IMG/VR virus record: IMGVR_UViG_3300047586_000039
Span: 1 to 48,795 of that record
Length of the DNA stretch: 48,795 nucleotides
Direction: 5' to 3' (one strand)
Origin: a virus
Part shown: piece by piece, positions 1-13,225 of the stretch
How positions within the stretch are numbered: the first letter of the stretch is position 1
Layout: each line of letters starts with the position of its first letter
Translations under genes and position numbers: made by a program
Notes under the pieces: generated by a model
Database searches by the model: none
Seen by the model: the letters and a program-made list of their open reading frames with translations, nothing else
What the model was told of the DNA's origin: nothing

Positions 1-127
1 TGCCTTAAACGGTGCACGAAATAAACTGCAACCCCGCCAATGCCACATTTCCAACATGGTTATAGATTCCTGATTATCCATGATATTATTTATTAAAGAA
101 ATACCTTGACAAAGCATTTTCTTTTCT
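1..127. repeat. Terminal direct repeat, left copy (circular-contig overlap)
   Basis: These 127 bases are identical to positions 48669-48795. A repeat of exactly 127 bases is what an assembler using k=127 leaves at the ends of a circular contig, so I read it as an overlap and not as phage terminal redundancy. Bases 1-8 are the last bases of the final tail gene. The rest is the AT-rich gap before the first early gene and includes the -35 of its promoter. Confidence 0.9.
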
Positions 128-134
128 ATACCCT
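106..134 (+). promoter_or_regulatory. Early promoter of the XRE-like regulator operon
   Basis: A perfect -35 TTGACA lies at 106-111. The -10 is less clear: TACCCT at 129-134 gives a 17-bp spacer, and TATACC at 127-132 gives 15. The upstream 40 bases are very AT-rich, like an UP element. The first good start codon follows at 154. An imperfect dyad around 53-81 (ATGG...CCAT arms) could be an operator for the regulator. Confidence 0.55.
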
Positions 135-153
135 GCAATCGTCGGAGGGTATT

Positions 154-372
154 ATGAAACAATTCAACTGGCAAAAAATCAGGGAACATAGAGAGGCGGC
201 GGGTCTCACACAATTTCAGCTTGCCGAAAAAGTTGGCGTGATGGTCCAGCAGATTTCCGCATGGGAAAACAGCGGCGGCGAAAAGGGTTTGACGACGGGC
301 AGCCTTGCGAAAATCGCCGACGCCCTTGGAAAGTCAACGGATGATTTTTTTATTGAAGGATTCCGGTTATGA
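154..372 (+). CDS. XRE/Cro-type helix-turn-helix regulator
   Basis: A 72-residue protein that is almost entirely one HTH_3 domain: the segment around residues 18-35 (GLTQFQLAEKVGV, then QQISAWENS) is the canonical turn and recognition helix, followed by IADALGKSTDDFF. Such proteins bind operator DNA as dimers and set the lytic/early switch. I chose ATG 154 because GGAGG sits 7-11 bases upstream; a TTG at 106 in the same frame lies inside the promoter. It is first in the early operon, so it probably represses its own promoter. Its stop overlaps the next start (ATGA). Confidence 0.85.
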   Translation: MKQFNWQKIREHREAAGLTQFQLAEKVGVMVQQISAWENSGGEKGLTTGSLAKIADALGKSTDDFFIEGFRL

Positions 373-827
373 ATGCTCAAGATGAGGCATACAAATCAAT
401 GCGCCTTCATCCAGAAAGTATTACCATATCTTATAAATGCCAACATGAAGGGCGCAAAGATCGCCATCACAGTGACTATTCAAAACCTTTATGCGTCATG
501 CTTCTCTGTAAGAAGTGCCATATTGCTGAACATTTGCAATATAGAAAACGGCGGGGAACTTATGAAGCAGAACGCACAGACCTTGGGAAGGTTTCGGAAT
601 TTCTAATTGCCAAATGTTGGAATTATCGGGATTTGGCAAATGCCTTGAATTGGTCTTATAATAAAACCCACCACGCAATAAACAACGGCGGAAAATCTTT
701 CGCCCCCAAAATCGCAGCAGTCCTCGGGATCGAACCCGAGTCTATCATAACCTCAATTCGGAAAGGAGGCCCGCGTCAAGAATCGGATCAATGCGGCGCG
801 TCGGCAGTCAATCCTGGTCAACCCTAA
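369..827 (+). CDS. Zinc-binding HNH-like protein with C-terminal HTH-like segment
   Basis: 152 residues. The N-terminal half has the phage zinc pattern C-x-H (residues 24-26), an HH-x-DYSKPL-x-V strand and LC-x-x-CH, which resembles a degenerate HNH or treble-clef fold. Residues about 85-120 (WNYRDLANALNWSYNKTHHAI) look like an HTH that chooses operator sites. The catalytic HNH asparagine/histidine triad is not convincing, so I favour DNA binding over cleavage. It overlaps the XRE gene by 4 bases and is probably co-translated with it. Confidence 0.6.
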   Translation: MNAQDEAYKSMRLHPESITISYKCQHEGRKDRHHSDYSKPLCVMLLCKKCHIAEHLQYRKRRGTYEAERTDLGKVSEFLIAKCWNYRDLANALNWSYNKTHHAINNGGKSFAPKIAAVLGIEPESIITSIRKGGPRQESDQCGASAVNPGQP

Positions 828-844
828 TCCATAGGAGGTGAGAA

Positions 845-919
845 GTGGCAAAGAAACCGGTAGCGAAGAAGGCGGTCAAGAAGGCGGTTAAGAAGGCGCC
901 GGTCAAGAAAAAGAAGTAA
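845..919 (+). CDS. 24-residue Lys/Ala-rich basic micropeptide
   Basis: GTG start preceded by AGGAGGTG at 833-840, a strong ribosome-binding site. The product is built of AKK/VKK repeats (13 Lys in 24 residues) ending KKKK, like a histone H1 tail. It would bind nucleic acid without a folded domain. The spacing, codon regularity and strong SD argue that it is translated. Function unknown. It is too short for ordinary gene callers. Confidence 0.55.
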   Translation: MAKKPVAKKAVKKAVKKAPVKKKK

Positions 920-975
920 CAAATCAAGGTGCCGGGCCGTGTGATTGGCAGCCACGGCCCCCGAAAGGAAACATC

Positions 976-1122
976 ATGGAAAAATGGATTTGCGAGAAAT
1001 GCGGACAAATCTTGACCGGCTGGTCAACGAAGGAAACCTGCGATTGCGGCGGGAAACTGAAAAAGGAGGGGAAAAATGGCGAACGGGAAAGCGGCAGAGA
1101 TAGAAGCAACAGCACTGAATAA
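976..1122 (+). CDS. Small zinc-ribbon protein
   Basis: 48 residues with CEKCG near residues 6-10 and CDCG at 22-25, the two knuckles of a zinc ribbon, then a polar tail. Start ATG 976 follows GAAAGGAA. The last 47 bases overlap the next gene in another frame, and the ribosome-binding site of that gene lies inside this one. Role unknown; such ribbons in phages usually bind nucleic acid or protein partners. Confidence 0.6.
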   Translation: MEKWICEKCGQILTGWSTKETCDCGGKLKKEGKNGERESGRDRSNSTE

Positions 1123-1288
1123 GGAATGGGAGGACATGAAAAAGCAAACAGCAGCAATTGTCAACCTTTTCGGCGGACTGATTTTCATGCCGGCGATCCT
1201 CTTGGTCGGAATCTGCTACGGCATCCGGGCTGGTGTGATTGTCGGATTTGAGAAAACATTGAGTATGCTCAAGGGGTGGGGGAAATAA
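1076..1288 (+). CDS. Small membrane protein, one helix
   Basis: 70 residues. A charged N-terminal helix (about 1-24) is followed by one hydrophobic segment (about 26-48, IVNLFGGLIFMPAILLVGI) and a basic C-terminus. AAGGAGGGG lies directly before ATG 1076. It is one of three early one-helix proteins (with 1291-1449 and 2905-3042). No family recognised; superinfection exclusion or an inner-membrane effector is possible but not shown. Confidence 0.6.
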   Translation: MANGKAAEIEATALNKEWEDMKKQTAAIVNLFGGLIFMPAILLVGICYGIRAGVIVGFEKTLSMLKGWGK

Positions 1289-1290
1289 CC

Positions 1291-1449
1291 ATGACTGAAT
1301 TCGCTGAAGGTTTATGGGTCTGCGCCGTCATTTTCACCGCGCTTGGTCTCCTGGTCGTGATCCTGTATTGCATTGGAATCCTTTACCGGGGGATCAGGGA
1401 TTGGTTTGAGAATCGAAACAAGGGGATGATCGGAAGGAGGGTTTCATGA
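1291..1449 (+). CDS. Small membrane protein, one helix
   Basis: 52 residues: acidic start, hydrophobic stretch (about residues 9-32, WVCAVIFTALGLLVVILYCIG), then a basic tail ending RNKGMIGRRVS. Its stop overlaps the ATG of the ASCH ghost ORF (ATGA at 1446-1449), so the ghost was once the next gene of the operon. Function unknown. Confidence 0.6.
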   Translation: MTEFAEGLWVCAVIFTALGLLVVILYCIGILYRGIRDWFENRNKGMIGRRVS

Positions 1450-1544
1450 AGGGTCTGATATTCAGCGAACCGATGGTGAAGGCATGGATGGAGGAAAGAA
1501 AGATATACGTTGACATGGTTAATTGCATATGCTATGCTTTATGA
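1446..1544 (+). pseudogene. Ghost 5' end of an ASCH-domain gene
   Basis: The first 19 codons (MKGLIFSEPMVKAWMEERK) match the start of the intact ASCH gene at 2355 (MKGLSFSEAMVKSWLAGNK): 12 of 19 residues and about 65% of bases by my hand alignment. After K19 the similarity stops abruptly and the frame runs into a TGA at 1542. The intact family continues T-V-T-R-R, so the break falls between codons 19 and 20. It keeps a ribosome-binding site (AAGGAGG at 1432-1438) and an ATGA overlap with the gene before. I read it as the severed start of a gene cut by the endonuclease that follows. Confidence 0.7.
1510..1538 (+). promoter_or_regulatory. Promoter carried by the LAGLIDADG cassette
   Basis: TTGACA at 1510-1515, a 17-bp spacer and TATGCT at 1533-1538 (4 of 6 matches to TATAAT). 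It starts within 8 bases of the ghost breakpoint and points at the endonuclease gene. That placement suggests it travelled with the endonuclease, giving expression independent of the recipient operon. Confidence 0.6.
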
Positions 1545-1569
1545 AAATATAATGGCGGGGGGTTGGTAT

Positions 1570-2358
1570 ATGCAAAACTGGCTGAATGGTGATTGGTCTT
1601 ACTTGCTCGGCGTAATTCACGGAGATGGCAATGTGAGCGACCGGTCGATCCGTATTTGCGTCGGGAATAAAGATGCCGATTTCGCGGATATGATTATGTC
1701 GACATGGACGGCACTCGGATTTAATCCGAAGCTATATCACCGGAGAACGGCACTTTCTGTTGAGGTCCATGATATTGCATTGACAAACGCGATACGAAAA
1801 TTCAAGGCGGGTGGCAAATGGAGCGTTCCGGAGGATTTCGATAAGGGCGAATGGCTTGCGGGAGTTTTTGACACGGACGGATGCGTGTCTCTTACTAAGA
1901 GCAAATGTGCCGTGATCCTCGGACTGAAACGCAGCGGGAATCTATTGTTGGTAAAAAGTGCTTTATCTGATGTAGGAATAGGGAATGTAAATATCCGTAA
2001 TTGTGTCAGTAAGTTTCATGGAAAACCCTACCCGATTGAAGTGCTGGGGCTTACAAGTTTCGATAAGATAAGAAAGTTCTCTGAGACTGTTCCGCTGAGG
2101 CATCCCCGCAAAAAGATACGTCTGAACGAAACTCTCGCCCATATTATTCGCGCCCAATCCATAGTCCCTCTATGGAAGCAAGTGGCAAAATGGCTGCATG
2201 AAGGCCCGCACACTTGGCCTGAGATCGCCGATAAATTCTCTCTCACAAAGAGACAGGTGGATAGTTGCTTACAGATGATAAAACAATATGGGAATATTGA
2301 AATTATTCCCCCGCCAAGAATGTTGACAAAATACTTAGTCGCGGAGGCTATAAAATGA
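1570..2358 (+). CDS. LAGLIDADG homing endonuclease
   Basis: A 262-residue monomeric enzyme with both dodecapeptide motifs: YLLGVIHGDG at about 11-20 and WLAGVFDTDG at about 95-104. The acidic residues in GDG and TDG are the metal-binding catalytic pair. A C-terminal segment (about 200-240, HTWPEIADKFSLTKRQVDS) looks like a helix-turn-helix that would add DNA specificity. ATG 1570 is chosen because GGGGGG lies 8 bases upstream and the first motif follows at once; ATG 1552 is possible. The stop overlaps the ASCH start (ATGA), coupling the two. It should cut inside the first 20 codons of ASCH genes lacking the insertion. Confidence 0.9.
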   Translation: MQNWLNGDWSYLLGVIHGDGNVSDRSIRICVGNKDADFADMIMSTWTALGFNPKLYHRRTALSVEVHDIALTNAIRKFKAGGKWSVPEDFDKGEWLAGVFDTDGCVSLTKSKCAVILGLKRSGNLLLVKSALSDVGIGNVNIRNCVSKFHGKPYPIEVLGLTSFDKIRKFSETVPLRHPRKKIRLNETLAHIIRAQSIVPLWKQVAKWLHEGPHTWPEIADKFSLTKRQVDSCLQMIKQYGNIEIIPPPRMLTKYLVAEAIK

Positions 2359-2912
2359 AGGGATTGAGCTTTAGTGAAGCTATGGTTAAATCTTGGCTTG
2401 CCGGGAACAAGACGGTAACGAGGCGGCTGATGAAGCCGCAACCGGATTACATAGATCCGGCACTTGATCTTATCTCAGCAAACGGGAAAGACATCAATCC
2501 CCGCTACCTCCCCGGCGAGACGGTCTATATTCGGGAAAATTTCAGATTGTGCGCCGTCTATGATTCTTATGCTCCAGGACAGATCGACTCCGCCGCCGCT
2601 GTCCTGTGGACAGCGGATGGAGAGAAAAAAGTGAACGGTCCCGAGAAATGGGGAAAGAAGAGATCCGGCCGTTTTATGCCCGAGAAATTCTCCCGGAGTC
2701 ACGCCCTGATCGTCAGCGTGAGGCCGGAGCAGATACGAAGTATCACGCCATTTGAGGCCGCCGAAGAGGGCTGCCCTATGCGGGATAATATTGTTTGCGC
2801 AAATGATATTCTGCGATGGTTTCGGGATCTTTGGGAATCGCTTCACCACGGATCATGGGAACGCAATGAATGGGTCTGGAGGATTGAGTTGGAGGAGGTG
2901 AAAAATGTTTGA
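2355..2912 (+). CDS. Phage ASCH-domain protein
   Basis: 185 residues of the phage ASCH (PUA-like) family: MKGLSFSEAMV, TVTRRLMKPQP near residue 20, YLPGETVYIRENFR around 55, then RPEQIRSITPFEAAEEG and a C-terminal W-rich end (WERNEWVWRIELEEV). ASCH domains are thought to bind RNA or modified bases; the role in phages is not established. It is the intact, regenerated copy of the gene whose start survives at 1446. Translation is coupled to the upstream endonuclease through ATGA. Confidence 0.8.
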   Translation: MKGLSFSEAMVKSWLAGNKTVTRRLMKPQPDYIDPALDLISANGKDINPRYLPGETVYIRENFRLCAVYDSYAPGQIDSAAAVLWTADGEKKVNGPEKWGKKRSGRFMPEKFSRSHALIVSVRPEQIRSITPFEAAEEGCPMRDNIVCANDILRWFRDLWESLHHGSWERNEWVWRIELEEVKNV

Positions 2913-3042
2913 ATGGTATGACTACATTGGATTAGCGATTGCCTTCCTTATTGCCTTATGGCTCATTTTCCATCATGAGGCGCATACCGACAGGCGGAAG
3001 CATTGGAAGGATAGGCGTCAAAAGAAATCAAGGAGGAGATGA
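2905..3042 (+). CDS. Small membrane protein with basic tail
   Basis: 45 residues: one hydrophobic helix (about 8-22, IGLAIAFLIALWLIF), then a strongly basic cytoplasmic tail (HHEAHTDRRKHWKDRRQKKSRRR). GGAGGAGGTG is 5 bases before ATG 2905. It overlaps the ASCH stop region by 8 bases. Function unknown; topology suggests an inner-membrane anchor with a nucleic-acid- or lipid-binding tail. Confidence 0.6.
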   Translation: MFEWYDYIGLAIAFLIALWLIFHHEAHTDRRKHWKDRRQKKSRRR

Positions 3043-3053
3043 GGGGGTGACTC

Positions 3054-3302
3054 ATGGTCCAGACTTCGATCTTCGATCAACCGTCATATCCGCCGAATCC
3101 GTACAAGACCGGCTCTCAAAATTATCGTCTCTACAATCGGATCATGGAAGGTCCGATCACAAACGCGGAAATCATCCGCACGCACGGGATCTTTAATTCG
3201 ACGGGCCGCATAAGTGAGATCCGGGAGTTCCTCGCGCCGCACGGGATCAAACTTCATTGCGAACGGGTGCATGATGGGCTGTTTGAGTACCGGCTTCAAT
3301 AG
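3054..3302 (+). CDS. Winged-helix-like small phage protein
   Basis: 82 residues. QNYRLYNRIMEGPITNAEIIRTHGIFNSTGRISEIREFLAPHGIKL (about residues 22-68) is the common phage helix-turn-helix in which a protein rebuilds itself around a T-x-x-I-x-x-x-x-G-I turn, followed by a short beta wing. Likely a DNA-binding regulator. GGGGG upstream gives the ribosome-binding site. The stop abuts the next GTG. Confidence 0.6.
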   Translation: MVQTSIFDQPSYPPNPYKTGSQNYRLYNRIMEGPITNAEIIRTHGIFNSTGRISEIREFLAPHGIKLHCERVHDGLFEYRLQ

Positions 3303-3560
3303 GTGAGTAAAATGCCGAGAATTACATTCGACACTATCAAGCAAAAAATGAAGGCCCTGAAAGATAAATTCTTTCGGAAGAAAAAGACTCCCGAGACATT
3401 TTACATTTCGCCGAAAAAGAAGCCCCTTGCAATAAAAGTTTCCCGTACCTGCAATCCACCCATCATTGATAGCGCTTTTTACGGGAAGGCCACTTATCGT
3501 CTCTTTATGCGATCCAAGAGGATGAAATTGATAAAGAGACGGAGGTTAATTGCGATATGA
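3303..3560 (+). CDS. Basic hypothetical protein
   Basis: 85 residues, very Lys/Arg-rich (KQKMKALKDKFFRKKK near 15-30; RSKRMKLIKRRR at the end). GTG 3303 directly follows the previous stop; an internal ATG at 3312 is an alternative with GGTGAG before it. No recognised domain. Its stop overlaps the ATG at 3557 of the fused HNH reading frame. Confidence 0.5.
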   Translation: MSKMPRITFDTIKQKMKALKDKFFRKKKTPETFYISPKKKPLAIKVSRTCNPPIIDSAFYGKATYRLFMRSKRMKLIKRRRLIAI

Positions 3561-4309
3561 CGCGCACCTTCATAACGGAAAACGATGTCATGCCCACAAA
3601 GAAATGCGGAAAATGCCAGCAGACGAAGGATCTGGATGATTTTTATGGCTGTAAGTCTGGAAGGTACGGCAAGAGTTCAATCTGTAAGAAGTGTCATCGG
3701 GCCAACGGAAAGGCATGGAATCTGAAAAATCTGGATCATGTTCGACAGAAAGACAAAGAAAGAAGGATCAGGAACAAAGAAAAATTGGACATTCAGCGGG
3801 CGAAATGGAAGGCGCAGAACCCGGCCAAGACAAGGGAAATGCTGCACCAGTGGAGGACAAACAATCCAGATAGGATAAAATTTCTCACGAAAAGATGGAA
3901 GTTAGAGCATCCCGATATATGGAAGGTCTCGCATAGCAGAGCGGTAGCAAAAATCATGGCTACCCCAAACGGAAAATTGCATTGCAGGATTTCCAGATTA
4001 GTAAACCATTGCCTTCATGGACGGAAGGGCTACCAAAAATGGGAGACGCTTGTTGGCTATACCACAGAACAACTCAAGGAGCATCTGGAAAAACAATTCA
4101 CCGAAGGTATGACTTGGGATAATTACGGAGAATGGCATGTTGATCATATAATCCCGAGGGCGGCGTTTAACTTTGAGATTCCAGAGGATATCGATTTCAA
4201 GCGGTGTTGGAGTCTGAAAAATCTCCGCCCGCTGTGGGCAATCGAAAACATAAGCAAGGGGGCGAAACTTAAGAAGCCGTTTCAACCTGCCTTGGCAATA
4301 CAAGCATAG
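3557..4309 (+). CDS. HNH homing endonuclease, fused to a ghost start
   Basis: 250 residues. Two zinc knuckles (C17-x2-C20, C43-x2-C46), a long Lys/Trp-rich helical linker, then the HNH core WHVDHIIP (about 193-200) and NLRPL...N-x-SKG (about 222-236). The second HNH gene at 7838 is a paralogue with the same order. Residues 1-11 (MTRTFITENDV) resemble the start of the next gene (MLRTFIIHDHP) and look like a ghost start captured in frame; the native start may be ATG 3590. Expected role is a free-standing homing nuclease. Confidence 0.85.
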   Translation: MTRTFITENDVMPTKKCGKCQQTKDLDDFYGCKSGRYGKSSICKKCHRANGKAWNLKNLDHVRQKDKERRIRNKEKLDIQRAKWKAQNPAKTREMLHQWRTNNPDRIKFLTKRWKLEHPDIWKVSHSRAVAKIMATPNGKLHCRISRLVNHCLHGRKGYQKWETLVGYTTEQLKEHLEKQFTEGMTWDNYGEWHVDHIIPRAAFNFEIPEDIDFKRCWSLKNLRPLWAIENISKGAKLKKPFQPALAIQA

Positions 4310-4319
4310 AGGCGCATTA

Positions 4320-4493
4320 ATGTTAAGAACTTTCATAATTCACGACCATCCGAACAAACAGGGCTTTGAATGTTACACCGTTAAGACTGACAACGGGAAA
4401 CCATATCTGGACAACGATCCGACGATAACGACAAGCAATGAACTGCGACTGGTGGAGAGGTTGATCCAATGGATTCGGGAAGGGAAACAGTGA
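4320..4493 (+). CDS. Hypothetical protein, regenerated copy
   Basis: 57 residues (MLRTFIIHDHP... ending LVERLIQWIREGKQ), with an amphipathic C-terminal helix. AGAGG sits 7 bases upstream, just after the endonuclease stop. Its first residues share M-x-R-T-F-I with the 5' end at 3557. Function unknown. The stop overlaps the next GTG start. Confidence 0.55.
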   Translation: MLRTFIIHDHPNKQGFECYTVKTDNGKPYLDNDPTITTSNELRLVERLIQWIREGKQ

Positions 4494-4660
4494 ACGAGCA
4501 GATATTACCCGAAGATGTGCGATCATTTATCTATACCGTGACTCTGTTTCTGCAAGCGAACAGGTATAAGACGCCGAAGCAGATGGATGCAATGTTTCAA
4601 ACTGCTTATCGTCTTTATGAAAAGTATGATGTGGAAGGAAGAAGGAAGGTGCCGGAATGA
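4490..4660 (+). CDS. Small hypothetical protein
   Basis: 56 residues from GTG 4490, whose start overlaps the previous stop (GTGA) and has AAGGGA 6 bases before it; ATG 4469 in the same frame would add 7 residues. Mostly helical, with alternating charge (YRLYEKYDVEGRRKVPE). No family recognised. ATGA overlap with the next gene. Confidence 0.5.
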   Translation: MNEQILPEDVRSFIYTVTLFLQANRYKTPKQMDAMFQTAYRLYEKYDVEGRRKVPE

Positions 4661-4782
4661 CCGACGACGAAATCACCGTTGAACCCGTCACCTGCCCGTC
4701 CTGCGATTGGTTCGGGATGTCCGATGACTGTCATTATAACTATTGCCCGAATTGCGGGCGGAGAGTGGTGAGGGAAAAATGA
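4657..4782 (+). CDS. Zinc-ribbon micro-protein
   Basis: 41 residues with CPSC at 13-16 and CPNCGRR at 31-37, a complete four-cysteine ribbon. It overlaps both neighbours by 4 bases (ATGA), typical of translational coupling in this operon. Likely binds nucleic acid or a partner protein. It is one of five such ribbon proteins in the genome. Confidence 0.6.
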   Translation: MTDDEITVEPVTCPSCDWFGMSDDCHYNYCPNCGRRVVREK

Positions 4783-5036
4783 GAGAAGTAAACTTTAGCA
4801 AGAATGTCGAGAAGGCTTCGGATGCGGTTCATGCGGCAACGGGAGATCTTAAAATGGCTCTTCAGCGGGCATATCCCCTCGGGGAATTTGTCCGCGTCAT
4901 CCACCATCGCGGAGAATATACGGGGGTTGTCGTCGGCCATGATGAACACGGAGCGCGGGTTGTCATAGAAAATGACGAATCAGGGAAGGTGTCGCGTCGC
5001 TGGTTTCGGGAAGTGGAAATGGAGATGGATACATGA
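4779..5036 (+). CDS. Hypothetical protein with SH3-like strand pattern
   Basis: 85 residues from ATG 4779 (overlaps the ribbon stop). The second half, GEFVRVIHHRGEYTGVVVGHDEHGARVVIENDESGKVSRRWF, alternates like a small five-stranded SH3/Tudor barrel. N-terminus is helical. It precedes the RecB-like nuclease with a 4-base overlap, so a role near recombination is possible. Function not known. Confidence 0.55.
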   Translation: MREVNFSKNVEKASDAVHAATGDLKMALQRAYPLGEFVRVIHHRGEYTGVVVGHDEHGARVVIENDESGKVSRRWFREVEMEMDT

Positions 5037-5575
5037 CCCGCCCCCGTGTCACCGAGATTCTTTCCCCCTACTCGGATTTCTCGAAGATCCCGCCGGATGT
5101 CCTTCAGGCGGCAGCTGAGAGAGGAACGGAGGTTCATGCAGCGTGCGCGGCGTATGCCCATAATCTCTGGTTGCCGGTCCCTGATGAACTTGACGGCTAT
5201 TTGCGATCGTTCAAGGCATGGTTTGATCGCTACGTCGTCGAAGTCCTCGCCGTCGAGGAGGAGGTCGTTCATCCGGCTTTCGGGTACATCGGGCATGTGG
5301 ACCTCATCGCAACGGTGGCCGGAATCCGCCCAAAACAGACGGTAGCAGTGGTTGATTTCAAAAGTCCGGCTGTTGCTTCACGTTCCTGGAATTGTCAAAT
5401 AGCGGCTTACCTGGAGGCATCAAGGGAACGATACGGAACGGAGGTCGCCGGGGCGCTCATGCTGAAAGCCGACGGGTCTCTACCAAAAATGATTTGGCTT
5501 GAGGATGGCAATCAGGCGTTTAATGCTTTCACGGGGATTTTGAGCGGTTTTAATTACCTGAAAGGGGGGAAATGA
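5033..5575 (+). CDS. RecB/Cas4-like PD-(D/E)XK exonuclease
   Basis: 180 residues. RGTEVHAACAAY (about 30-41) carries the upstream histidine, GHVDLIA (about 87-93) the first metal aspartate, and VVDFKS (about 105-110) the D-x-K signature, with QIAAYLEA after it: the usual order in phage RecB-family nucleases. It would resect double-stranded ends to give single strands for the RecT/Bet annealing protein encoded 3 kb downstream. Both neighbours overlap it by 4 bases. Confidence 0.8.
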   Translation: MTRPRVTEILSPYSDFSKIPPDVLQAAAERGTEVHAACAAYAHNLWLPVPDELDGYLRSFKAWFDRYVVEVLAVEEEVVHPAFGYIGHVDLIATVAGIRPKQTVAVVDFKSPAVASRSWNCQIAAYLEASRERYGTEVAGALMLKADGSLPKMIWLEDGNQAFNAFTGILSGFNYLKGGK

Positions 5576-5862
5576 TGAGGGAAAAGCAAGCGTCACAAGA
5601 AACGGTCAATGCCTTTATGAAGGCTGTTTATCCCGAAATGACCGAACTGGCGGTTACGATGGGCAGCGAGGAAACAATACTTAATGATGCCACAAAATTG
5701 ATCGCCACGCTGGGGGCCGCCCTCTTGTCGAGCCTGACATTGCAGAGCCACTACGCAAAACTGCTCAATCAGTATGACGGAGGCAACCGTAAGGGATTCC
5801 ATGCGGTTGATAAATGGATTGAACGCCTTAGAGAATGTGGAGAATTGAAAGGGAAGGGGTAA
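5572..5862 (+). CDS. Hypothetical protein between nuclease and coiled-coil gene
   Basis: 96 residues, helical, no signature. Two adjacent ATGs at 5572 and 5575; the first overlaps the nuclease stop. Its place inside the recombination cassette suggests an accessory role, but nothing in the sequence proves it. Confidence 0.55.
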   Translation: MMREKQASQETVNAFMKAVYPEMTELAVTMGSEETILNDATKLIATLGAALLSSLTLQSHYAKLLNQYDGGNRKGFHAVDKWIERLRECGELKGKG

Positions 5863-5865
5863 AAT

Positions 5866-6768
5866 ATGGGAGAAGCATTGGATTTTGACAGCATCGGAGA
5901 GGAAACGGCGGTCGATCTTGAAAAAGAACGGGACGAAAGGGGCATGACGCTCATGTATGACCTGGAGGCCATAAAACCGAAATTCGCAGACTATCGTTTC
6001 GAGGCCGCCCGGATCTGGCATGATGCGAAGTTCTTGACGGTCACGGATCAGGAAAGCCTCAACATCGCCGTCATGCTCGGAGGGAACGCGAAGAAGATCG
6101 GGAAGGCAATCGAGGCCGAACGGAAACGGATCATCCTGGAGCCTGCCGAGTTTGTCAAGGGCGTGAACGGGATCTGCAAGATGATCACCGATTCCCTGGA
6201 CGAAGCCGAAGTGACGGTCAAGGAGAAGATCCGGATTCATAACACCCGTGTCGAACTTGAGCGCCGAGAGGCCGAGCGGAAGGCGCGGGAAGCCACGGAA
6301 GCCCTGCAAAGGAAGCTACAGGCCGAGGCGGATGAAGCGAATCGAAAAGCACAAGCGGAGGCGCGGGCCAGAGTCGAAGAGGAGCAGCGGATTAAGCGGG
6401 AGAAGGAAGCGGCGGAGGCCAGGGAACGCGGGGCGAAGGCGGCGGAATTGAAGGCCCTTGCGGAGAAGGCGGAAAAAGAACGGCTTGAAGCGGTTCGGAA
6501 GGCCGAAGAGGAGGCCAAAAAGATCGAGGTTATCGCGCCGACGGTGGTCGCCCCGGTGGTTCAAGAGGCGGCAAGAGTAACCCGAACGGAGAGCGGATCG
6601 GCCTCACAGCGGCGGGTCTGGACGTACGAGGTCTTGAGCGAGGCGGCTGTGCCTCGGGAATTCTTTTCGTTGAACGAACAGAAAATAAGGGATGCGATCA
6701 AGATGGGGACGCGTGCGATCAGCGGCGTGCGGATTTTTGAGGAAACAAAAACGGTTTTCAGGACATAG
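5866..6768 (+). CDS. Long coiled-coil protein of the recombination cassette
   Basis: 300 residues. Residues about 1-110 form a mixed helical domain; 115-220 are an uninterrupted Glu/Arg/Lys/Ala coiled coil (repeats like EAERKAREA, EEEQRIKREKEA); the C-terminus (about 248-298, VPREFFSLNEQKIRDAIKMGTRAISGVRIFEE) is a small conserved domain seen at the end of many phage proteins in the same position. It may scaffold the exonuclease and annealing protein. No enzymatic motif is present. A strong ribosome-binding site (AAGGGG) precedes ATG 5866. Confidence 0.65.
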   Translation: MGEALDFDSIGEETAVDLEKERDERGMTLMYDLEAIKPKFADYRFEAARIWHDAKFLTVTDQESLNIAVMLGGNAKKIGKAIEAERKRIILEPAEFVKGVNGICKMITDSLDEAEVTVKEKIRIHNTRVELERREAERKAREATEALQRKLQAEADEANRKAQAEARARVEEEQRIKREKEAAEARERGAKAAELKALAEKAEKERLEAVRKAEEEAKKIEVIAPTVVAPVVQEAARVTRTESGSASQRRVWTYEVLSEAAVPREFFSLNEQKIRDAIKMGTRAISGVRIFEETKTVFRT

Positions 6769-6779
6769 GAGGGAGAGAA

Positions 6780-7046
6780 GTGGAACACAAAAAAGAGAAT
6801 GTAATGGGAATGGAATTAGATATCTGGCGGCATGAATCCTGTGAAGCGCAGATTGCGACGGGAGACGATTGGGCAACCGTTTATTTGATTGAATCATCCG
6901 ATAAGGGGAAAGGCCACGCTCAGGCACTCTTGATGGAGGCCAGAAAATATTATGAAGGGCTTGGCCTCCGGTTCGGTGGCACGGTAGCCTTAAATAACGT
7001 AATGGGGCACATCTACAGGAAATTAAACATTTTAGAATACACATAG
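6780..7046 (+). CDS. Short GNAT-like acetyltransferase fold protein
   Basis: 88 residues from GTG 6780 after GGAGGGAG. The stretch DKGKGHAQALLMEARKYYEGLGL resembles GNAT motif A (the acetyl-CoA pyrophosphate loop), and VALNNVMGHIYRKLNILEY resembles motif B. It is far shorter than ordinary GNAT enzymes (about 140-170), lacking the first strands, so it may be a minimal or degraded form. Substrate unknown. Confidence 0.5.
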   Translation: MEHKKENVMGMELDIWRHESCEAQIATGDDWATVYLIESSDKGKGHAQALLMEARKYYEGLGLRFGGTVALNNVMGHIYRKLNILEYT

Positions 7047-7062
7047 AAAGGGGAAGGGGATT

Positions 7063-7326
7063 ATGAAAAAGGAAGTTGAAAAGAAAGAATATCGGATCGG
7101 GGATGTTGCCGGGCATGCAGACAAGGCTTTATGCGATCGATTTGAGCGATTCGCAAAACTAAGGGCAGAATGCTATCAAATCCTCATTGAGTGTGCAGCG
7201 CAGGACCGGAGCACATGGGACGACGCGCTAAAGGAGTATTCCTTGTCGAAAGATTTTCAATACAAAATCAATCGGCCTTCCGGGGAAATCATCGTTATCG
7301 GGTACGACTGGAAAAATAATAATTAA
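7063..7326 (+). CDS. Hypothetical protein
   Basis: 87 residues: a helical N-terminal half and a short beta C-terminus (GEIIVIGYDWKNNN). Preceded by the leader GAAAGGGGAAGGGG, which recurs before 7346 and 7570 and, with changes, before 11609. No domain recognised. Confidence 0.55.
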   Translation: MKKEVEKKEYRIGDVAGHADKALCDRFERFAKLRAECYQILIECAAQDRSTWDDALKEYSLSKDFQYKINRPSGEIIVIGYDWKNNN

Positions 7327-7345
7327 CAAGAAAGGGGAAGGGGTT

Positions 7346-7546
7346 ATGGAAAAGTTCTGGATGGTTTGGAGGGAAAACGGGGGAGGACCAACGCGCCAAT
7401 ACCCGGCAGAGAAATCGGCGGAAATAGAGGCGGAGCGGTTGGCGCGGGAGAATCCCGGAGCGAATTTTGTGGTCCTGGAATCGGTGAAGTTTTGCACCAT
7501 CGATAATCCGATCCACTGGTACGACACGAGCGTTATTCCGTTTTAA
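7346..7546 (+). CDS. Small conserved phage protein
   Basis: 66 residues: FWMVWRENGGGPTRQYPAEKSAEIEAERLARENPGANFVVLESV. This beta-helix-beta pattern (a short strand, a gap, an A-rich helix, NPG-x-x-F-x-V-L) is common as a small phage protein, but no function is known to me. Same duplicated leader sequence upstream as its neighbours. Confidence 0.6.
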   Translation: MEKFWMVWRENGGGPTRQYPAEKSAEIEAERLARENPGANFVVLESVKFCTIDNPIHWYDTSVIPF

Positions 7547-7569
7547 CGGAGAGAAAGGGGAGGGGGAAG

Positions 7570-7776
7570 GTGAAAATCGCGCAGATCAAGGCCAAAATGC
7601 TGGCATGGGAGGACTTTTACGGAGCGGATATTTTTGAAAGAGAACGCATCGAAAAAGCCAAGACGAAAAAAGAATTGGACGATGTTCTCCATGACTATCG
7701 GCGTCACATGGAAGATAGAGAACAGGATGCTTTGAGCCATTTCGATCTATTCCGAAACAGCCTTAATTTAACTTAA
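7570..7776 (+). CDS. Small helical hypothetical protein
   Basis: 68 residues from GTG 7570, preceded by GGGGAGGGGGAA. Entirely helical and charged (ERERIEKAKTKKELDDVLHDY). The product may be a small coiled coil. Function unknown. Confidence 0.5.
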   Translation: MKIAQIKAKMLAWEDFYGADIFERERIEKAKTKKELDDVLHDYRRHMEDREQDALSHFDLFRNSLNLT

Positions 7777-7793
7777 CAGAGGGAGGGGAATTT

Positions 7794-7835
7794 ATGGAAA
7801 AAGCGTTAGCAACACAGGCGGAACAGAAGGAGTAG
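7794..7835 (+). pseudogene. Ghost 5' end of a recT/bet gene
   Basis: A 13-codon ORF (MEKALATQAEQKE then TAG) with GAGGGAGGGG upstream. It shares ATQ and EQKE with the first 15 residues of the intact recombinase at 8480 (MATQNLPAVSTEQKE), and 9 bases (gcaacacag) are identical. The HNH endonuclease starts 3 bases after its stop. The break corresponds to codon 15/16 of the intact gene. Confidence 0.6.
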
Positions 7836-7837
7836 CG

Positions 7838-8476
7838 ATGGAAGAGAAGCGGTGCACGAAGTGTGGGAATATTAAGGCGTTATCTGAATTTTACACAGGC
7901 GCGAGGTATGCAGGTGGGATACGCAGCAGGTGTAAGAATTGTATGAAAACAGGACAGGCGGAAGGTCATAAGGCATGGAAGGTTGAAAACGCCCAGGCCG
8001 TCACGGAATACAACCGGGCTTGGTATGCCGAAAATGGAATCAATTATCATAAAAAATGGCGCGGAGAGAACCGGGAGAAAGTGAATCTTGCCGGTCGGAA
8101 AAACCAAGGTAAAAAAAGAAGTACCGTAAAGGGAAAGCTAAACGACAACCTATCCCGCGCCGTCAGACAGTCATTGAGAAGCGGAACAAAGGCAAGGTGC
8201 CGATGGGAGGACCTTGTCGGCTACACGGTTGACCAACTGAAAGCCCATCTTGAAAAACTCTTTACTCTCGAAATGTCATGGGAAAACTATGGGACATTTT
8301 GGGAAATCGACCATCGGATTCCGATAGCGGCACATAACTTTGAAAGTCCAAACGATCCAGACTTCAAGAAGTGCTGGGCACTGAAAAACCTTCGGCCTCT
8401 GGAAATCATAAAGAACCGAAGCAAGCACGACAAGGTCGAACGTCCCTTTCAACCATCATTGACAATAGGAGGATAG
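7838..8476 (+). CDS. HNH homing endonuclease in the recT/bet start
   Basis: 212 residues, paralogous to 3557-4309: two zinc knuckles (C6-x2-C9, C32-x2-C35), a Lys-rich linker, a W-x-D-L-VGYT-x-DQLKAHLEKLF helix, then the core WEIDHRIPI and CWALKNLRPLEIIKNRSK. It starts 3 bases after the ghost stop, so it probably uses translational reinitiation from the ghost. Its final codons supply AGGAGG for the recombinase start at 8480. Likely target: the first 45 bases of recT-type genes. Confidence 0.85.
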   Translation: MEEKRCTKCGNIKALSEFYTGARYAGGIRSRCKNCMKTGQAEGHKAWKVENAQAVTEYNRAWYAENGINYHKKWRGENREKVNLAGRKNQGKKRSTVKGKLNDNLSRAVRQSLRSGTKARCRWEDLVGYTVDQLKAHLEKLFTLEMSWENYGTFWEIDHRIPIAAHNFESPNDPDFKKCWALKNLRPLEIIKNRSKHDKVERPFQPSLTIGG

Positions 8477-8479
8477 CGT

Positions 8480-9484
8480 ATGGCAACACAGAATCTACCC
8501 GCAGTCAGTACCGAGCAAAAAGAAATTATCTATACCGCAGCCGACGGCAACGAAATAAAACTCACGCCCGATATGGTCAGAAAATATTTAGTGCAAGGGC
8601 ATGGCGAGATGGTGACAACACAAGAAATGGTGTTTTTTCTTAATGTCTGCAAATCAAGAAAACTCAACCCCCTGATTCGTGACTGCTATTTGATCAAGTA
8701 TTCGGCATCTGACCCCGCCGCAATCGTTACCAGTGTTGATTTCTTCCGCAAGCGGGCGCGGGCGCAAAAGGATTGCAAGGGATGGAAATCCGGTATCATC
8801 GTCGAGGACCGAGAGGGAAAGGTCCGGGATACTGCTGGATTGTTCCGAGACGGTGAAAAGCTCCTCGGCGGATGGTTCGAGGCGAAACCGGACGGCTGGA
8901 CGGACCCTCTCCGGCTCGAGGTCAATCTTCGAGGGTATGTAAAAAAGAAGAGCGATGGCAGCGTGACCCGTTTCTGGTCCCCGGATAACCAACCCTCGCA
9001 GATCATGAAGGTGGCCGAATCGCAAGGACTCCGGAAGTTATGGCCGGATGAATTCCAGGGGATCTATTCGGAAGAGGAAATCACGCAGCAGGACAGGAAC
9101 GGCGCGGTTGACGTTATCACCGAAGACAAACCAGACCTTTCTGCATCCGTCGCTGAGTTCGACAAGGCGACCACCGATAAGGGGCTCATGGAGAAATATG
9201 TCACCGTCGCCGCAAAGCACTTCAAAAAATCCCCGGAAGAGATCAAGGCCGAGGCCATGAAGGACCTTCCCGGATTCCTCACGGCTTATGAGAAGTGGGC
9301 GGCGCTCTATATGCAGAAGGAAGCCCTGAAGAAGAAGGCGGCAGAACCAAAAAAGAATGTTGATGCGCTGACAGGAATGGAACTGGCCCCCGGCCCCTGC
9401 CCGAACCGCGAGGATAAGGAAATCATGACCGTACAATTCTGCGGGGAGTGCAAACAAAAAGAGGGCTGCCCGGTCTGGGGATGA
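8480..9484 (+). CDS. bet: Single-strand annealing recombinase, Redbeta/RecT family
   Basis: 334 residues. FLNVCKSRKLNPLIRDCYLIKY (about residues 53-74), SVDFFRKRARAQ (about 90) and YVKKKSDGSVTRFWSPDNQ (about 155) are signature stretches of the Bet/RecT core, which anneals complementary single strands during phage recombination. The C-terminal 70 residues are a coiled linker and a CPNREDKE...CGECKQKEGCPVW zinc-binding tail. Partner nuclease is the RecB-like gene at 5033. Start ATG 8480 has AGGAGG inside the endonuclease stop region. Confidence 0.9.
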   Translation: MATQNLPAVSTEQKEIIYTAADGNEIKLTPDMVRKYLVQGHGEMVTTQEMVFFLNVCKSRKLNPLIRDCYLIKYSASDPAAIVTSVDFFRKRARAQKDCKGWKSGIIVEDREGKVRDTAGLFRDGEKLLGGWFEAKPDGWTDPLRLEVNLRGYVKKKSDGSVTRFWSPDNQPSQIMKVAESQGLRKLWPDEFQGIYSEEEITQQDRNGAVDVITEDKPDLSASVAEFDKATTDKGLMEKYVTVAAKHFKKSPEEIKAEAMKDLPGFLTAYEKWAALYMQKEALKKKAAEPKKNVDALTGMELAPGPCPNREDKEIMTVQFCGECKQKEGCPVWG

Positions 9485-9501
9485 CGACTTGATCACGGCC
9501 C

Positions 9502-9520
9502 GCCCGGAGCCTATCCGGGC
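9502..9520 (+). promoter_or_regulatory. Small hairpin before the 9534 gene
   Basis: GCCCGG (9502-9507) pairs with CCGGGC (9515-9520) over a 7-base loop, between the recombinase stop and the AAAGGAA ribosome-binding site of the next gene. No U-run follows, so it is more likely to tune translation or RNA decay than to terminate. Confidence 0.4.
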
Positions 9521-9533
9521 AGAAAGGAACATC

Positions 9534-9908
9534 ATGGAAGAGTACATCGGTCCCAGGGTTGTCGGGATGATTGCCGGCGACATCGAAGCGCTGCTAAACG
9601 AAAACCAGAGCGCGATCAACGAGGCTTACGTAAATGTTGGGAAGGGTTTCAAAATCAGCATCGGCGTGGGACTCTCCCCCGCGCCCCAGGGCGTCGAAGC
9701 GGAGATCAAGCTGTCATTCGCCCGCGAGACCGTCCAGGCCCCGGAAAAGTGCACGGCGAAGATGAAAAGAATCATGTCGGAAAATCAGGCGGAATTTGAA
9801 TTGAGCACGGGCGGAGAAACGATCCTGAAAGGAAACACAACCGATCTGGCGAGGGCGACGGCAAGATTAAAGACGGCGGACAAGGTTTACAGGATGGAAA
9901 AGGGATGA
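9534..9908 (+). CDS. Hypothetical protein downstream of the recombinase
   Basis: 124 residues from ATG 9534 (AAAGGAA 7 bases upstream). An N-terminal helix (IAGDIEALLNENQSAINEAYV) is followed by beta strands with the pattern KGFKISIGVGLSP...VEAEIKLSFARETVQAPEKC. This helix plus beta-hairpin layout recurs beside phage recombinases. Function unknown. Confidence 0.6.
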   Translation: MEEYIGPRVVGMIAGDIEALLNENQSAINEAYVNVGKGFKISIGVGLSPAPQGVEAEIKLSFARETVQAPEKCTAKMKRIMSENQAEFELSTGGETILKGNTTDLARATARLKTADKVYRMEKG

Positions 9909-10045
9909 TCTACACCGGCGCGACAGGGGTTTTTGCATTTGGACGATTTGGTCCGAGCTGCCCAGATACCGCGAGGTCTGGGGCGCACCTTTTGGGCGTA
10001 GACACAGCTCGGGCCTTTTATTGTGCCCGAAGCAAAGCAGTCTAA
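9905..10045 (+). CDS. Possible 46-residue ORF over the structured RNA
   Basis: ATG 9905 overlaps the previous stop (ATGA) and stays open to 10045. The product (MIYTGATGVFAFGRFGP... ending ARSKAV) has no known domain. Because the same DNA folds into a compact three-way junction, an RNA role is at least as likely as a protein. Low confidence as a gene. Confidence 0.25.
   Translation: MIYTGATGVFAFGRFGPSCPDTARSGAHLLGVDTARAFYCARSKAV
9950..10015 (+). ncRNA. Structured RNA element: three-way junction before an HNH gene
   Basis: P1 pairs 9950-9960 with 10005-10015 (11 bp, one G-U). P2 pairs CCCAGA 9961-9966 with TCTGGG 9977-9982. P3 pairs 9984-9989 with 9994-9998, with one bulged A and a TTTT loop. 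Junction strands are 0, 1 and 6 bases. TTTTATT follows, so P1 could act as a terminator-like stem. CGGGC (10009-10013) can instead pair with GCCCG (10025-10029), a mutually exclusive fold. It lies 50 bases before the HNH gene. No known riboswitch or ribozyme core was recognised. Confidence 0.45.
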
Positions 10046-10064
10046 ACCAAAAGGAGGTTACACC

Positions 10065-10523
10065 ATGAACTACTCAGAAAAATTGAAAGATCCACGTTGG
10101 CAAAAAAAGAGGTTGGAAGTATTTGAACGCGATGAATGGAGCTGTCAGCGCTGTGGTGATGGCGAAAACACATTGACCGTGCATCATCTTTCATATTCAG
10201 CCGGAAAAGAGCCATGGGATTATCCTCTGGATAACTTCATGACGCTTTGCCAGTCATGCCACGACTATGAATACACCAACCGACCAACTTACGAGAATAT
10301 GATTTTACATATGTTACGGCAAAAGGGATTTATGGCGGATGATCTCTTTTATTTGGTAGCTGCGTTCCAAAAACTATCCATAAAATACCCCTCGGAAGTA
10401 ATGGGAAGTATTGTCGAATACATATTTAAGGATGAGGTTATGGCTAATATTTACCCATGGTTTTGGGCGGACTGTAAGAAAAGGGCAGAAATGATGAGGG
10501 AGGCGATAGATGGCCAGACCTGA
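10065..10523 (+). CDS. HNH endonuclease with C-terminal helical domain
   Basis: 152 residues from ATG 10065 (AAAGGAGG upstream). The N-terminal third is a classical HNH zinc nuclease: CQRCG (about 26-30), TLTVHHLSYS (about 36-45), WDYPLDNFMTLCQSCHDYEY (about 51-70). The rest is helical. It overlaps the replication-initiator start by 14 bases. Could be a homing enzyme or a host-type nuclease; unlike four others, no ghost start is seen. Confidence 0.75.
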   Translation: MNYSEKLKDPRWQKKRLEVFERDEWSCQRCGDGENTLTVHHLSYSAGKEPWDYPLDNFMTLCQSCHDYEYTNRPTYENMILHMLRQKGFMADDLFYLVAAFQKLSIKYPSEVMGSIVEYIFKDEVMANIYPWFWADCKKRAEMMREAIDGQT

Positions 10524-11352
10524 ACGACACGACGCCGATTATTTCCCTTTTTACGTCAAGGACGGAAAAACCCTTTTCATTCTTGAATCGAAGTATGGCC
10601 TTCAAGGAATTGGGTTTTTTACCAATGTAATGCGGTTTCTTACCAGGCAAACCGATCACCATATCTGCATAAAAGACGAATCAGACAGGATGTATTTTTT
10701 CGCTCAGATCCGATGCCCGGAAGATATCGGCATGGATATGCTTAACCTCATGGCCAAAACAGAGAAAATTGATGTTGAATTGTGGGGGGAAAGCCGGGTT
10801 ATTGTGTCAAGGGATTTACTTAATAGCCTCCGAGATGCGTATAAAAACCGGAAAAACCCAGTGATCGAAATTGATCAAATTCGGGTTTCTTACCAGACAA
10901 ACAAAATAACTTACCCGGAAATCCTTGTAACTTCCCCCGATAATCCACAAAGGAAAGGAAAGGAAAGGAAAGGAAAGGAAAGGATAACCAAAAAACAGAA
11001 ATCCCCCCTCCCTGAAAATTTCAATGTCTCCCCGTCTGTCCAGGCATGGGCAATTAAGAAAGGCCATACGCGATTAGACGAACATCTTGAATCATTCACT
11101 GCGAAGTGTAGGGCGAACGGATACCAATATATTGATTGGGATTCGGCCTTCATGGAGGCCATACGAACAGACTGGGCAAAGTTAAAGCCATATGGCGGGA
11201 ACGGAAAGAAGCCCCCCCCTACTCCAAGCGGTGAAAGGGATGTCCGGGATTATCAACCCGAAGAAATCCCAGCAGAAAGCGAAGATATTAGACTGAAAAG
11301 GTTAGAGATGCTTAAGGATTTCACACACAACCTGGGACGAGCATCCCCATAG
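10510..11352 (+). CDS. DUF4373-like replication initiation protein
   Basis: 280 residues. Residues 1-110 (MARPERHDADYFPFYVKDGK, then YGLQGIGFFTNVMRFL) have the Lin1244/Lin1753-type winged-helix pattern of phage replication initiators. Residues 150-162 (RKGKERKGKER) are encoded by the AAAGG microsatellite. The C-terminal part (NFNVSPSVQAWAIKKGHTRLDEHLESFTAKCRANGYQYIDWDSAFMEAIR) matches the DnaD-type or initiator tail that ends in W-x-x-W-x-K. Likely binds the origin or loads host helicase. Confidence 0.7.
   Translation: MARPERHDADYFPFYVKDGKTLFILESKYGLQGIGFFTNVMRFLTRQTDHHICIKDESDRMYFFAQIRCPEDIGMDMLNLMAKTEKIDVELWGESRVIVSRDLLNSLRDAYKNRKNPVIEIDQIRVSYQTNKITYPEILVTSPDNPQRKGKERKGKERITKKQKSPLPENFNVSPSVQAWAIKKGHTRLDEHLESFTAKCRANGYQYIDWDSAFMEAIRTDWAKLKPYGGNGKKPPPTPSGERDVRDYQPEEIPAESEDIRLKRLEMLKDFTHNLGRASP
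10949..10983 (+). repeat. AAAGG microsatellite, seven perfect copies
   Basis: Seven tandem AAAGG units lie in the linker of the replication-initiator gene and encode KGKER repeats. Because 5 is not a multiple of 3, loss or gain of one unit would shift the reading frame, cutting the C-terminal domain. Perfect short repeats of this length can slip during replication. Confidence 0.95.
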
Positions 11353-11366
11353 GATCGAGGTGAAGC

Positions 11367-11579
11367 ATGGACACGGAATCGGTCAGGAAGGACATTGGAT
11401 ATTTGAACGGCGAGGTAATTCCCATGGATAGATCAAGGTTTGTTATTAAAAAGCGGATCAGGTACACACAAGGGATTCTAAAAGGCAAGGTGTGTGACAT
11501 TAAGGACACAATCGCCGATGACCTGATTGAGCATGGCATGGCTGTTGAGGTTGGAAGGCAACCAGGGAAAGAGGGATAA
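11367..11579 (+). CDS. Small hypothetical protein
   Basis: 70 residues with a beta-rich core (SRFVIKKRIRYTQGILKGKVCDIKDTIADDLIEHGMAVEV). ATCGAGGTGAA precedes ATG 11367. No recognised domain. The pattern resembles small phage proteins that pair a beta hairpin with an I-x-D-x-IA helix. Confidence 0.55.
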   Translation: MDTESVRKDIGYLNGEVIPMDRSRFVIKKRIRYTQGILKGKVCDIKDTIADDLIEHGMAVEVGRQPGKEG

Positions 11580-11608
11580 ACACTTAACGAGAAAGGAGAA
11601 GGGGAATT

Positions 11609-11773
11609 ATGAACACAACTTTATGGGGCAAAGACGACAAGGAAATGCTCAAGGAGTGGATAAGGGAGAACAAAACAACAAAGGTTCCGTATGCTACCGG
11701 TCTTCCTGGACTTTGCGATCTTCTGCCGGGGAAGACAATCAACTCAATTTATAGCATGTGGCGTGATCTGTGA
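11609..11773 (+). CDS. Small SANT/Myb-like protein
   Basis: 54 residues, ATG 11609 after GAAAGGAGAAGGGG. LWGKDDKEMLKEWIRENKTTKVPYATGLPGLCDLLPGKTINSIYSMWRDL has the spacing of a Myb/SANT tri-helix (aromatic at W6, W18 and W52). It may bind DNA. Not confirmed. Its neighbour starts 6 bases after its stop. Confidence 0.5.
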   Translation: MNTTLWGKDDKEMLKEWIRENKTTKVPYATGLPGLCDLLPGKTINSIYSMWRDL

Positions 11774-11779
11774 ATTGAG

Positions 11780-12073
11780 ATGGGGCTGTCCTCTGTTTGC
11801 CAAGATGTCAAACCAGGCGTTTCCATATATCAACCGAGAGGGTTCATCCAAGAACGCGATGATATCTTATCGGCAATGATGTTGGGCGTAACCAACTACA
11901 TAACGGGACGGACGAATGCCGCCTATGTGAAGGGCCTTGAAGAGGGGGCGGGAAAAGCAAACGACGGGCTACTGAAAGAGAATGCCGAATTGAAAGAGAT
12001 GTTGAGGAAAACAAAGGACATCCGGGAAGCAGTGGAGAAATTTCAATCGACATTCATCAAAGGCGACAGGTAA
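11780..12073 (+). CDS. Coiled-coil hypothetical protein
   Basis: 97 residues. The N-terminal part (GFIQERDDILSAMMLGVTNYITGRTNAAYVKGLEEG) is helical and the rest is a heptad coiled coil (LLKENAELKEMLRKTKDIREAVEKF). The ribosome-binding site is weak (GAG). No family recognised. Confidence 0.5.
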   Translation: MGLSSVCQDVKPGVSIYQPRGFIQERDDILSAMMLGVTNYITGRTNAAYVKGLEEGAGKANDGLLKENAELKEMLRKTKDIREAVEKFQSTFIKGDR

Positions 12074-12079
12074 CAGGCC

Positions 12080-12376
12080 ATGACCCCCAAGATCCCCACC
12101 CTTAAGCCCAGGATCGCCACCCTTGACACAAGGCAGGGATCAAGCGCTACTGTCGACAGGATACGCGGCTACAGGCTGACGCAGATCAGGGAGCGTGTGC
12201 TGCTTAGGGATGGGTACGCGTGCCGGCGATGTGGGCGCGTGTCTGCTACTGAGCTGATTGTGGACCATGTTGTGCCCTTAAGCATGGGTGGGCAAGAGGC
12301 AGACAGCAACAGGCAGGCGCTATGTCGAGCGTGCCATGATCTAAAGAGCGAACAGGAAGAGAAGGGGCGATCATGA
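12080..12376 (+). CDS. HNH endonuclease near the terminase genes
   Basis: 98 residues. CRRCG (about 48-52), LIVDHVVPLSMGG (about 60-72), DSNRQALCRACHDLKSEQEEKG is a complete HNH core with a zinc knuckle. In HK97-type phages a small HNH nuclease close to the terminase helps DNA packaging, and this one is about 2 kb from it. The stop overlaps the next HNH gene by 4 bases. Confidence 0.8.
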   Translation: MTPKIPTLKPRIATLDTRQGSSATVDRIRGYRLTQIRERVLLRDGYACRRCGRVSATELIVDHVVPLSMGGQEADSNRQALCRACHDLKSEQEEKGRS

Positions 12377-12705
12377 AGCGAACCATAAGCACAGCGTTCA
12401 AGGCAGCACGTCATGACATGCGATCAAGGCTGATCCAATGCCATGATTGTACCGATTATGCAACAGAGCTGCATCATGTCATTGCTATAGAGGATGGCGG
12501 CACAGATGATATATTAAACCTCATGCCATTGTGTCGATCATGCCACAAGGAATACACAAGCGGGCAAACCATTGAAAGGAATCAGATGTGGGTGAGCCTA
12601 AGCGTTAAGGATGATGAGGTAACGGCGCAGATCAAAGGGGGGCCGGTCGAATCTCTGGGGCGGATAGGGCGGCGTAACCGCATGGTTATCTATTCGCAGA
12701 ATTAA
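12373..12705 (+). CDS. Second HNH-fold protein, tandem
   Basis: 110 residues. CHDCTDYATELHHVIAIEDGGTDDILNLMPLCRSCHKEYTSG keeps the zinc cysteines (CHDC, CRSCH), the HH pair and the central N. The sequence otherwise differs from its neighbour, so it is not a simple duplication. Its C-terminal half may bind DNA. Two adjacent HNH genes with an ATGA overlap are unusual. Confidence 0.7.
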   Translation: MKRTISTAFKAARHDMRSRLIQCHDCTDYATELHHVIAIEDGGTDDILNLMPLCRSCHKEYTSGQTIERNQMWVSLSVKDDEVTAQIKGGPVESLGRIGRRNRMVIYSQN

Positions 12706-12760
12706 AAGGCCGTATGAACATTTAGAAGGTTAACAGTAGGGTAAAGTTCAAAGGAGCATC

Positions 12761-13225
12761 ATGGAAATCGAGATTAAGACCGTAAAGCTCAAGGAAATTA
12801 AGCTGAATCCCGACAACCCCCGGCGAATCAGCACCGTTGACATGGACCGGCTCGTAAAGAGCCTCCAGGACTTCCCGGACATGATGCAGATCCGGGAGAT
12901 AGTCGTGGATGAAACCATGACCTGCCTCGGGGGGAACATGCGGACGCTGGCGCTCAGGAAGGCGGGCGCGGCGGCGTGTTTGACGTTTCGATTCAGGGAA
13001 GTTCGATCAGGGATTACCTGCTGCGGGCCGGGTTTGTGTCCTGGAAGGCAAATCAAAAGGTTCCGACGCACCGCGATCTTTTGCGGGTCGTCTGGAATGA
13101 CCCACGGCACAAGATCAGCATTCAAAAACACTGTCTGTTTCGACTTACGGACAAAAAAGACCCCGAAGGTAATGCCGTCTTATGGTTTGACGGCAAGGCG
13201 AACCTCGGCACGAAAAAGGAGGTGA
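12761..13225 (+). pseudogene. ParB/Srx-like N-terminal domain, broken after about 72 residues
   Basis: Residues 1-72 (VKLKEIKLNPDNPRRISTVDMDRLVKSLQDFP...CLGGNMRTLALRKAG) are a clear ParB nuclease domain start. After AGAAA the frame becomes Cys/Arg-rich and shows no ParB features, while a well-formed protein opens in the -1 frame at 12976. The best reading is a deletion join or frameshift that truncated the gene. The ParB domain is expected to continue about 30-60 residues or more. Confidence 0.6.

Follow-up and report, generated by a model that had tools for sequence, protein, structure and literature searches.

Displaced gene starts in front of phage homing endonuclease genes point to insertion into 5' coding regions

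Endonuclease genes that enter a host gene are known from fungal mitochondria, where mobile ORFs carry a foreign C-terminus for atp6 in Allomyces and for atp6, atp9, cox2 and nad3 in Glomus (PMC3630166). Bacteriophage T4 harbors the freestanding endonucleases seg and mob, and the start of mobE overlaps the stop of nrdA in the sequence UAAUGA (reviewed in PMC2988022). Passages of PMC10448857 describe homing endonuclease genes (HEGs) that bracket essential phage genes, such as those for terminase, ribonucleotide reductase and replication. Lastly, synthetic gene drives of the recoded-rescue type place a nuclease in a needed gene together with a recoded piece that restores its function (PMC11432399). 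A search of open-access PMC text returned no precedent for the replacement of gene starts by HEGs in phages, which is weak evidence of absence.

Here we analyzed a viral DNA stretch of 48,795 nucleotides (the window; positions 1 to 48,795 of IMG/VR record IMGVR_UViG_3300047586_000039) that carries three endonuclease genes with a common arrangement (Table 1). Each is preceded by a short stretch resembling the start of the gene that follows (hereafter, the ghost), and is followed by a restarted copy of that gene, with the ribosome binding site (RBS) located at the end of the endonuclease gene. This RBS is of the GAGG type, lies 7 nt 5' of the restarted gene in all three cases, and is formed by or overlaps the last bases of the HEG. 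All three genes encode a homing-type endonuclease domain (phrog_1035 for HNH1 and HNH2, PF14528 for the LAGLIDADG gene). We consider it very probable, from the gene arrangement and the likeness of ghosts to gene starts, that freestanding HEGs invaded phage genes within their 5' coding region, stranding a ghost in front and leaving a diverged, complete start behind.

Table 1. Positions of ghosts, endonuclease genes, ribosome binding sites and restarted genes in the window.
Locus	Feature	Position	Strand	Match or remark
recT	RBS of the displaced recT start	7780–7789	+	AGGGAGGGGA, purine-rich, 4 nt 5' of ATG 7794
recT	Ghost, 13 initial codons probably displaced from a recT allele, MEKALATQAEQKE plus TAG	7794–7835	+	ATG 7794, TAG 7833–7835; matches L104 RecT start MEKALAKQ
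recT	Shine-Dalgarno for HNH2, AAGGAG (ghost codons 12–13)	7827–7832	+	5 nt 5' of endonuclease ATG
recT	HNH2, EndoVII/HNH-type freestanding endonuclease gene	7838–8476	+	phrog_1035, 2.2e-13 (PHROGs); ATG 7838, stop TAG 8474–8476
recT	AGGAGG RBS for recT, inside endonuclease 3' end	8467–8472	+	7 nt 5' of recT ATG 8480
recT	Intact recT-family single-strand annealing protein, replacement start MATQNLPA	8480–9484	+	RecT domain (Pfam PF03837, 2.5e-27); L107 start MTQNLPA
HNH1	Ghost MTRTFI, fused in frame to HNH1	3557–3574	+	Resembles MLRTFI of the gene behind
HNH1	HNH1, second EndoVII/HNH-type endonuclease, core from 3587	3557–4309	+	phrog_1035, 1.1e-22
HNH1	Gene with replacement start MLRTFI	4320–4493	+	GAGG 7 nt upstream overlaps HNH1 stop
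LAGLIDADG	Ghost, probable displaced start of the phrog_874 gene	1446–1544	+	Homologous part MKGLIFSEPMVKAWMEERK (1446–1502)
LAGLIDADG	LAGLIDADG homing endonuclease ORF	1510–2358	+	PF14528, 4.4e-11; likely start ATG 1552 or 1570
LAGLIDADG	GGAGG RBS for the copy, within LAGLIDADG 3' end	2343–2347	+	
LAGLIDADG	Intact phrog_874 gene, start MKGLSFSEAMVKSWLAGNK-TVTRR	2355–2912	+	phrog_874, 6.9e-37; ATGA overlap with endonuclease stop

The recT locus had first been described in a sequence-only reading of positions 7794–8530 as a 13-codon ORF, a TAG stop, an endonuclease ATG and then recT. This layout stands with small corrections only: two bases, not three, separate the TAG from the endonuclease ATG. 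The AGGAGG that the same reading had attributed to the intact recT is indeed positioned for it. HNH2 is 47% identical to a segment of HNH1; its family has a PHROG endonuclease VII match and no Pfam match, structure comparison gave a weak similarity (Hpy99I, Z 3.4), and no sequence match for the HNH family was found in the PDB. Reinitiation after the ghost stop is a plausible route for translation of HNH2, and would not be obligatory, since HNH2 is preceded by its own Shine-Dalgarno sequence and other cases have a ghost fused in frame. Three further genes with an HNH domain (PF01844; 10068–10523, 12080–12376 and 12373–12705) showed no ghost starts in the window scan. An Rfam match to c4-2 RNA is also present at 9949–10018 (+), at 30.8 bits (below the gathering score of 41; E 0.004), and could correspond to a c4-type antisense RNA.

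Homing endonucleases often reside in introns or inteins, and such an element could in principle have carried the endonuclease into these genes. We regard this as extremely improbable: no Rfam group I intron match was obtained in positions 1–13000 of the window at E<=1, stop codons end either the ghost or the endonuclease, and the downstream gene has a complete start of its own.

Within the window, the recT ghost and recT are modestly alike, with self-pair p values of 0.017 when ranked by row, where the pair is the best of 60, and of 0.067 when ranked by column. We thus turn to RecT relatives gathered from viral contigs and bacterial genomes. The closest one found, L104, is 56% identical and lies on a phage contig that carries no endonuclease; its N-terminus, MEKALAKQEDRSITYQAADG (MEKALAKQ), is to be compared to MEKALATQAEQKE in the ghost and to ...EQKEIIYTAADG in the window recT. 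The ghost and L104 recT share 20 of their first 24 nucleotides, and the match reaches a score of 33, attained by no other of 3,930 ORF N-termini (P ~0.004 as the best of 17 RecT N-termini; 0.0065 with shuffled ghosts). The sequence-only reading had asked whether phage relatives have a recombinase beginning MEKALATQ, and L104, with its MEKALAKQ, bears this out. The RecT of L107, in turn, begins with MTQNLPAQ, similarly to the MATQNLPAV of the intact window recT. Since the ghost resembles L104 and the intact gene resembles L107, the ghost is best read as a recT start that was displaced, and the start now in use as that of another allele; the window thus holds two alleles of the recT start. The gene order exo, phrog_10477-like gene, recT is kept in relatives without the endonuclease, L104 included, and HNH2 is missing from the equivalent recT site in L004, L104 and L107. 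Together with the MEKALAKQ start of L104, this synteny strongly supports the earlier proposal that the endonuclease gene was inserted in the recT start. A genome search for nearer recT relatives yielded nothing beyond the already known proviral copies. The L107 contig also bears an ORF (2047–2310) made almost wholly of G-D/S/Y-G repeats (GDGSGDGYGDG...).

The ghost possesses a good RBS and adjoins the endonuclease start, as would be expected of a functional leader peptide, i.e. an upstream ORF with a regulatory effect on the endonuclease or on recT. This explanation appears very unlikely to us, given that the ghost matches the recT start of an endonuclease-free relative and that ghosts at other loci match the starts of nrdB, terL and dnaJ. 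A displaced recT start could nevertheless act secondarily as a leader.

In the second case, the MTRTFI/MLRTFI couple is the best self-pair both by row and by column (p 0.017 each), and it rests on six residues. Relatives of the gene starting at 4320 were found neither in phages nor in viral contigs. The recT and HNH1 pairs are thus individually modest, and gain weight because of the L104 match and the family-wide pattern described below.

The third case surfaced from an intended negative control, performed with other ORFs of the same loci, where it appeared as one strong match. The LAGLIDADG ghost MKGLIFSEPMVKAWMEERK and the copy MKGLSFSEAMVKSWLAGNK match at 12 of 19 residues, and the insertion point is located directly 5' of the TVTRR motif of the phrog_874 gene. 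Phage homologues of this gene (L320–L322) have a single start, ...GRKTVTRR or GRKTQTRR, and lack the endonuclease at this site. No relatives of the LAGLIDADG gene were identified in cultured phages.

The family-wide pattern was sought in metagenomic contigs. A small survey, limited to 60 loci and to 150 nt of upstream sequence, gave only 4 clear cases and no general excess. In a larger one (128 loci, 240 nt upstream), the stretch upstream of 8 of the 128 HNH relatives with a downstream gene matches the start of that gene with a score of at least 42, where mismatched pairs predict 0.2; the non-HNH control gave 1 of 174 at a score of at least 45, namely the LAGLIDADG gene of the window. The two short window pairs are absent from the top list of the larger survey, as the bigger search region lowers their rank. 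Approximately 120 of the 128 relatives have no strong ghost, and the arrangement is thus either a minority one or one that decays. The mirror arrangement at gene 3' ends shows no excess among these phage HNH genes. It could be argued that short N-terminal peptides look alike by chance, as ATQ and EQKE alone are short and the column value of the recT pair is weak; the family-wide excess, the agreement of the LAGLIDADG pair and the L104 match make this highly improbable.

The survey cases involve nrdB (L101), terL (L077, L080 and L303), dnaJ (L248), small genes (L053 and L054) and L278, with the L278 and L053 pairs being less certain than the remaining six. The sequence-only reading had also suggested that a homing nuclease aimed at a recombination gene may rely on the recombinase for its own repair; the idea that such a need explains the choice of target finds no support, since unrelated genes (the phrog_874 gene, nrdB, terL and dnaJ) show the same arrangement. 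Two layouts are seen: in HNH1, L077, L303 and L248 the ghost is fused in frame, whereas in HNH2, L101, L080, L054 and the LAGLIDADG locus it is a separate ORF. Several insertions directly border a conserved coding motif. In L101, the ghost MSNLLTPRVTYGPFEYEAAYQFFQKEQL ends in a TGA that overlaps the HEG start as ATGA, and the insertion separates the conserved QQ from the conserved HW in NrdB; in the other nrdB relatives that were fetched, no HNH gene of this family precedes nrdB. The L248 ghost breaks off at the point where the HPD of the DnaJ J-domain would come next, and the terL insertions are within the N-terminal part of the gene. L033 and L080 carry related HNH genes before homologous terL genes, with a clear ghost only in L080. 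A same-family HNH gene in L148 (2463–3122) is located directly behind nrdB, on the opposite side from the L101 insertion.

Ghost and copy have diverged considerably at the DNA level. Nucleotide identity of the pairs ranges from 43 to 74%, and the two sequences are too dissimilar to be grouped into one family of direct DNA repeats. Where ghost and copy share an amino acid, about half of the codons differ (52 of 95, with another 4 of 7 at HNH2), as expected of separate alleles; a donor start acquired by co-conversion could account for this. Alternatively, the insertion event could simply have duplicated the gene start in tandem, after which the two versions drifted apart with no donor allele involved; this would yield the same layout, and the identity values fit old duplications. 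We nonetheless find it unlikely, although single cases may have arisen in this way: codons differ at many shared residues even though protein-level selection presumably does not act on a ghost, and at recT the ghost matches the start of one relative and the copy that of another. The collections yielded no two near-identical loci that differ by the presence of the HEG.

Our preferred model is thus one of insertion with allele replacement, in which homing, cleavage and reinitiation are what we infer from the arrangement. A HEG would insert in the 5' coding region and leave the first codons of its target in front as a ghost, which would end in a stop beside the HEG start or be fused in frame to it. 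The HEG would then be translated from the start signals of the ghost, by fusion or by stop and restart aided by an internal Shine-Dalgarno sequence. A replacement start would be acquired from a donor phage through co-conversion during homing, so that the target gene restarts behind the HEG with a complete, diverged start and its own RBS, and can still work. Diverged at the DNA level, this replacement start would leave the gene functional and would protect the HEG-bearing allele against its own nuclease. More broadly, at slightly less than even odds, this may represent a natural home-and-rescue strategy in which unrelated HEG families repeatedly target conserved 5'-end motifs of important genes and carry a diverged, cleavage-resistant start with an RBS, thereby swapping N-termini between lineages. 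Each case marks a candidate cutting site at the junction of ghost and gene, which makes the model directly testable. If correct, it would provide endonuclease genes with a route into needed phage genes that involves no intron or intein splicing, and would explain the source of their translation signals as well as one way in which the N-termini of phage proteins become mosaic. For annotation, short ORFs that precede phage endonucleases can be fossils of gene starts.

The phage loci resemble the fungal mobile ORFs (PMC3630166) in that an endonuclease gene lies in a host gene whose native end is displaced and a foreign one supplied; the fungal hybrid gene is still expressed, and in both systems DNA has diverged while protein is conserved. 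The fungal elements, however, replace the 3' end and thus the C-terminus, whereas here it is the 5' end that is replaced, with start codon and RBS; the 3' mirror shows no excess among these phage HNH genes. As for T4 seg and mob (PMC2988022), these are freestanding phage HEGs near essential genes, with an endonuclease start that can overlap an upstream stop; for the T4 type the review describes coupling to an intact upstream gene, whereas in the phage loci analyzed here the ORF in front is a mere fragment of the downstream gene. The positions beside terminase, ribonucleotide reductase and replication genes recall the HEGs of PMC10448857, whose passages on these genes make no mention of gene starts being displaced or replaced. 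Recoded-rescue drives (PMC11432399) work similarly, though only by analogy; the phage version would be natural and employ a protein endonuclease, with the resistance of the copy to cutting being hypothetical.
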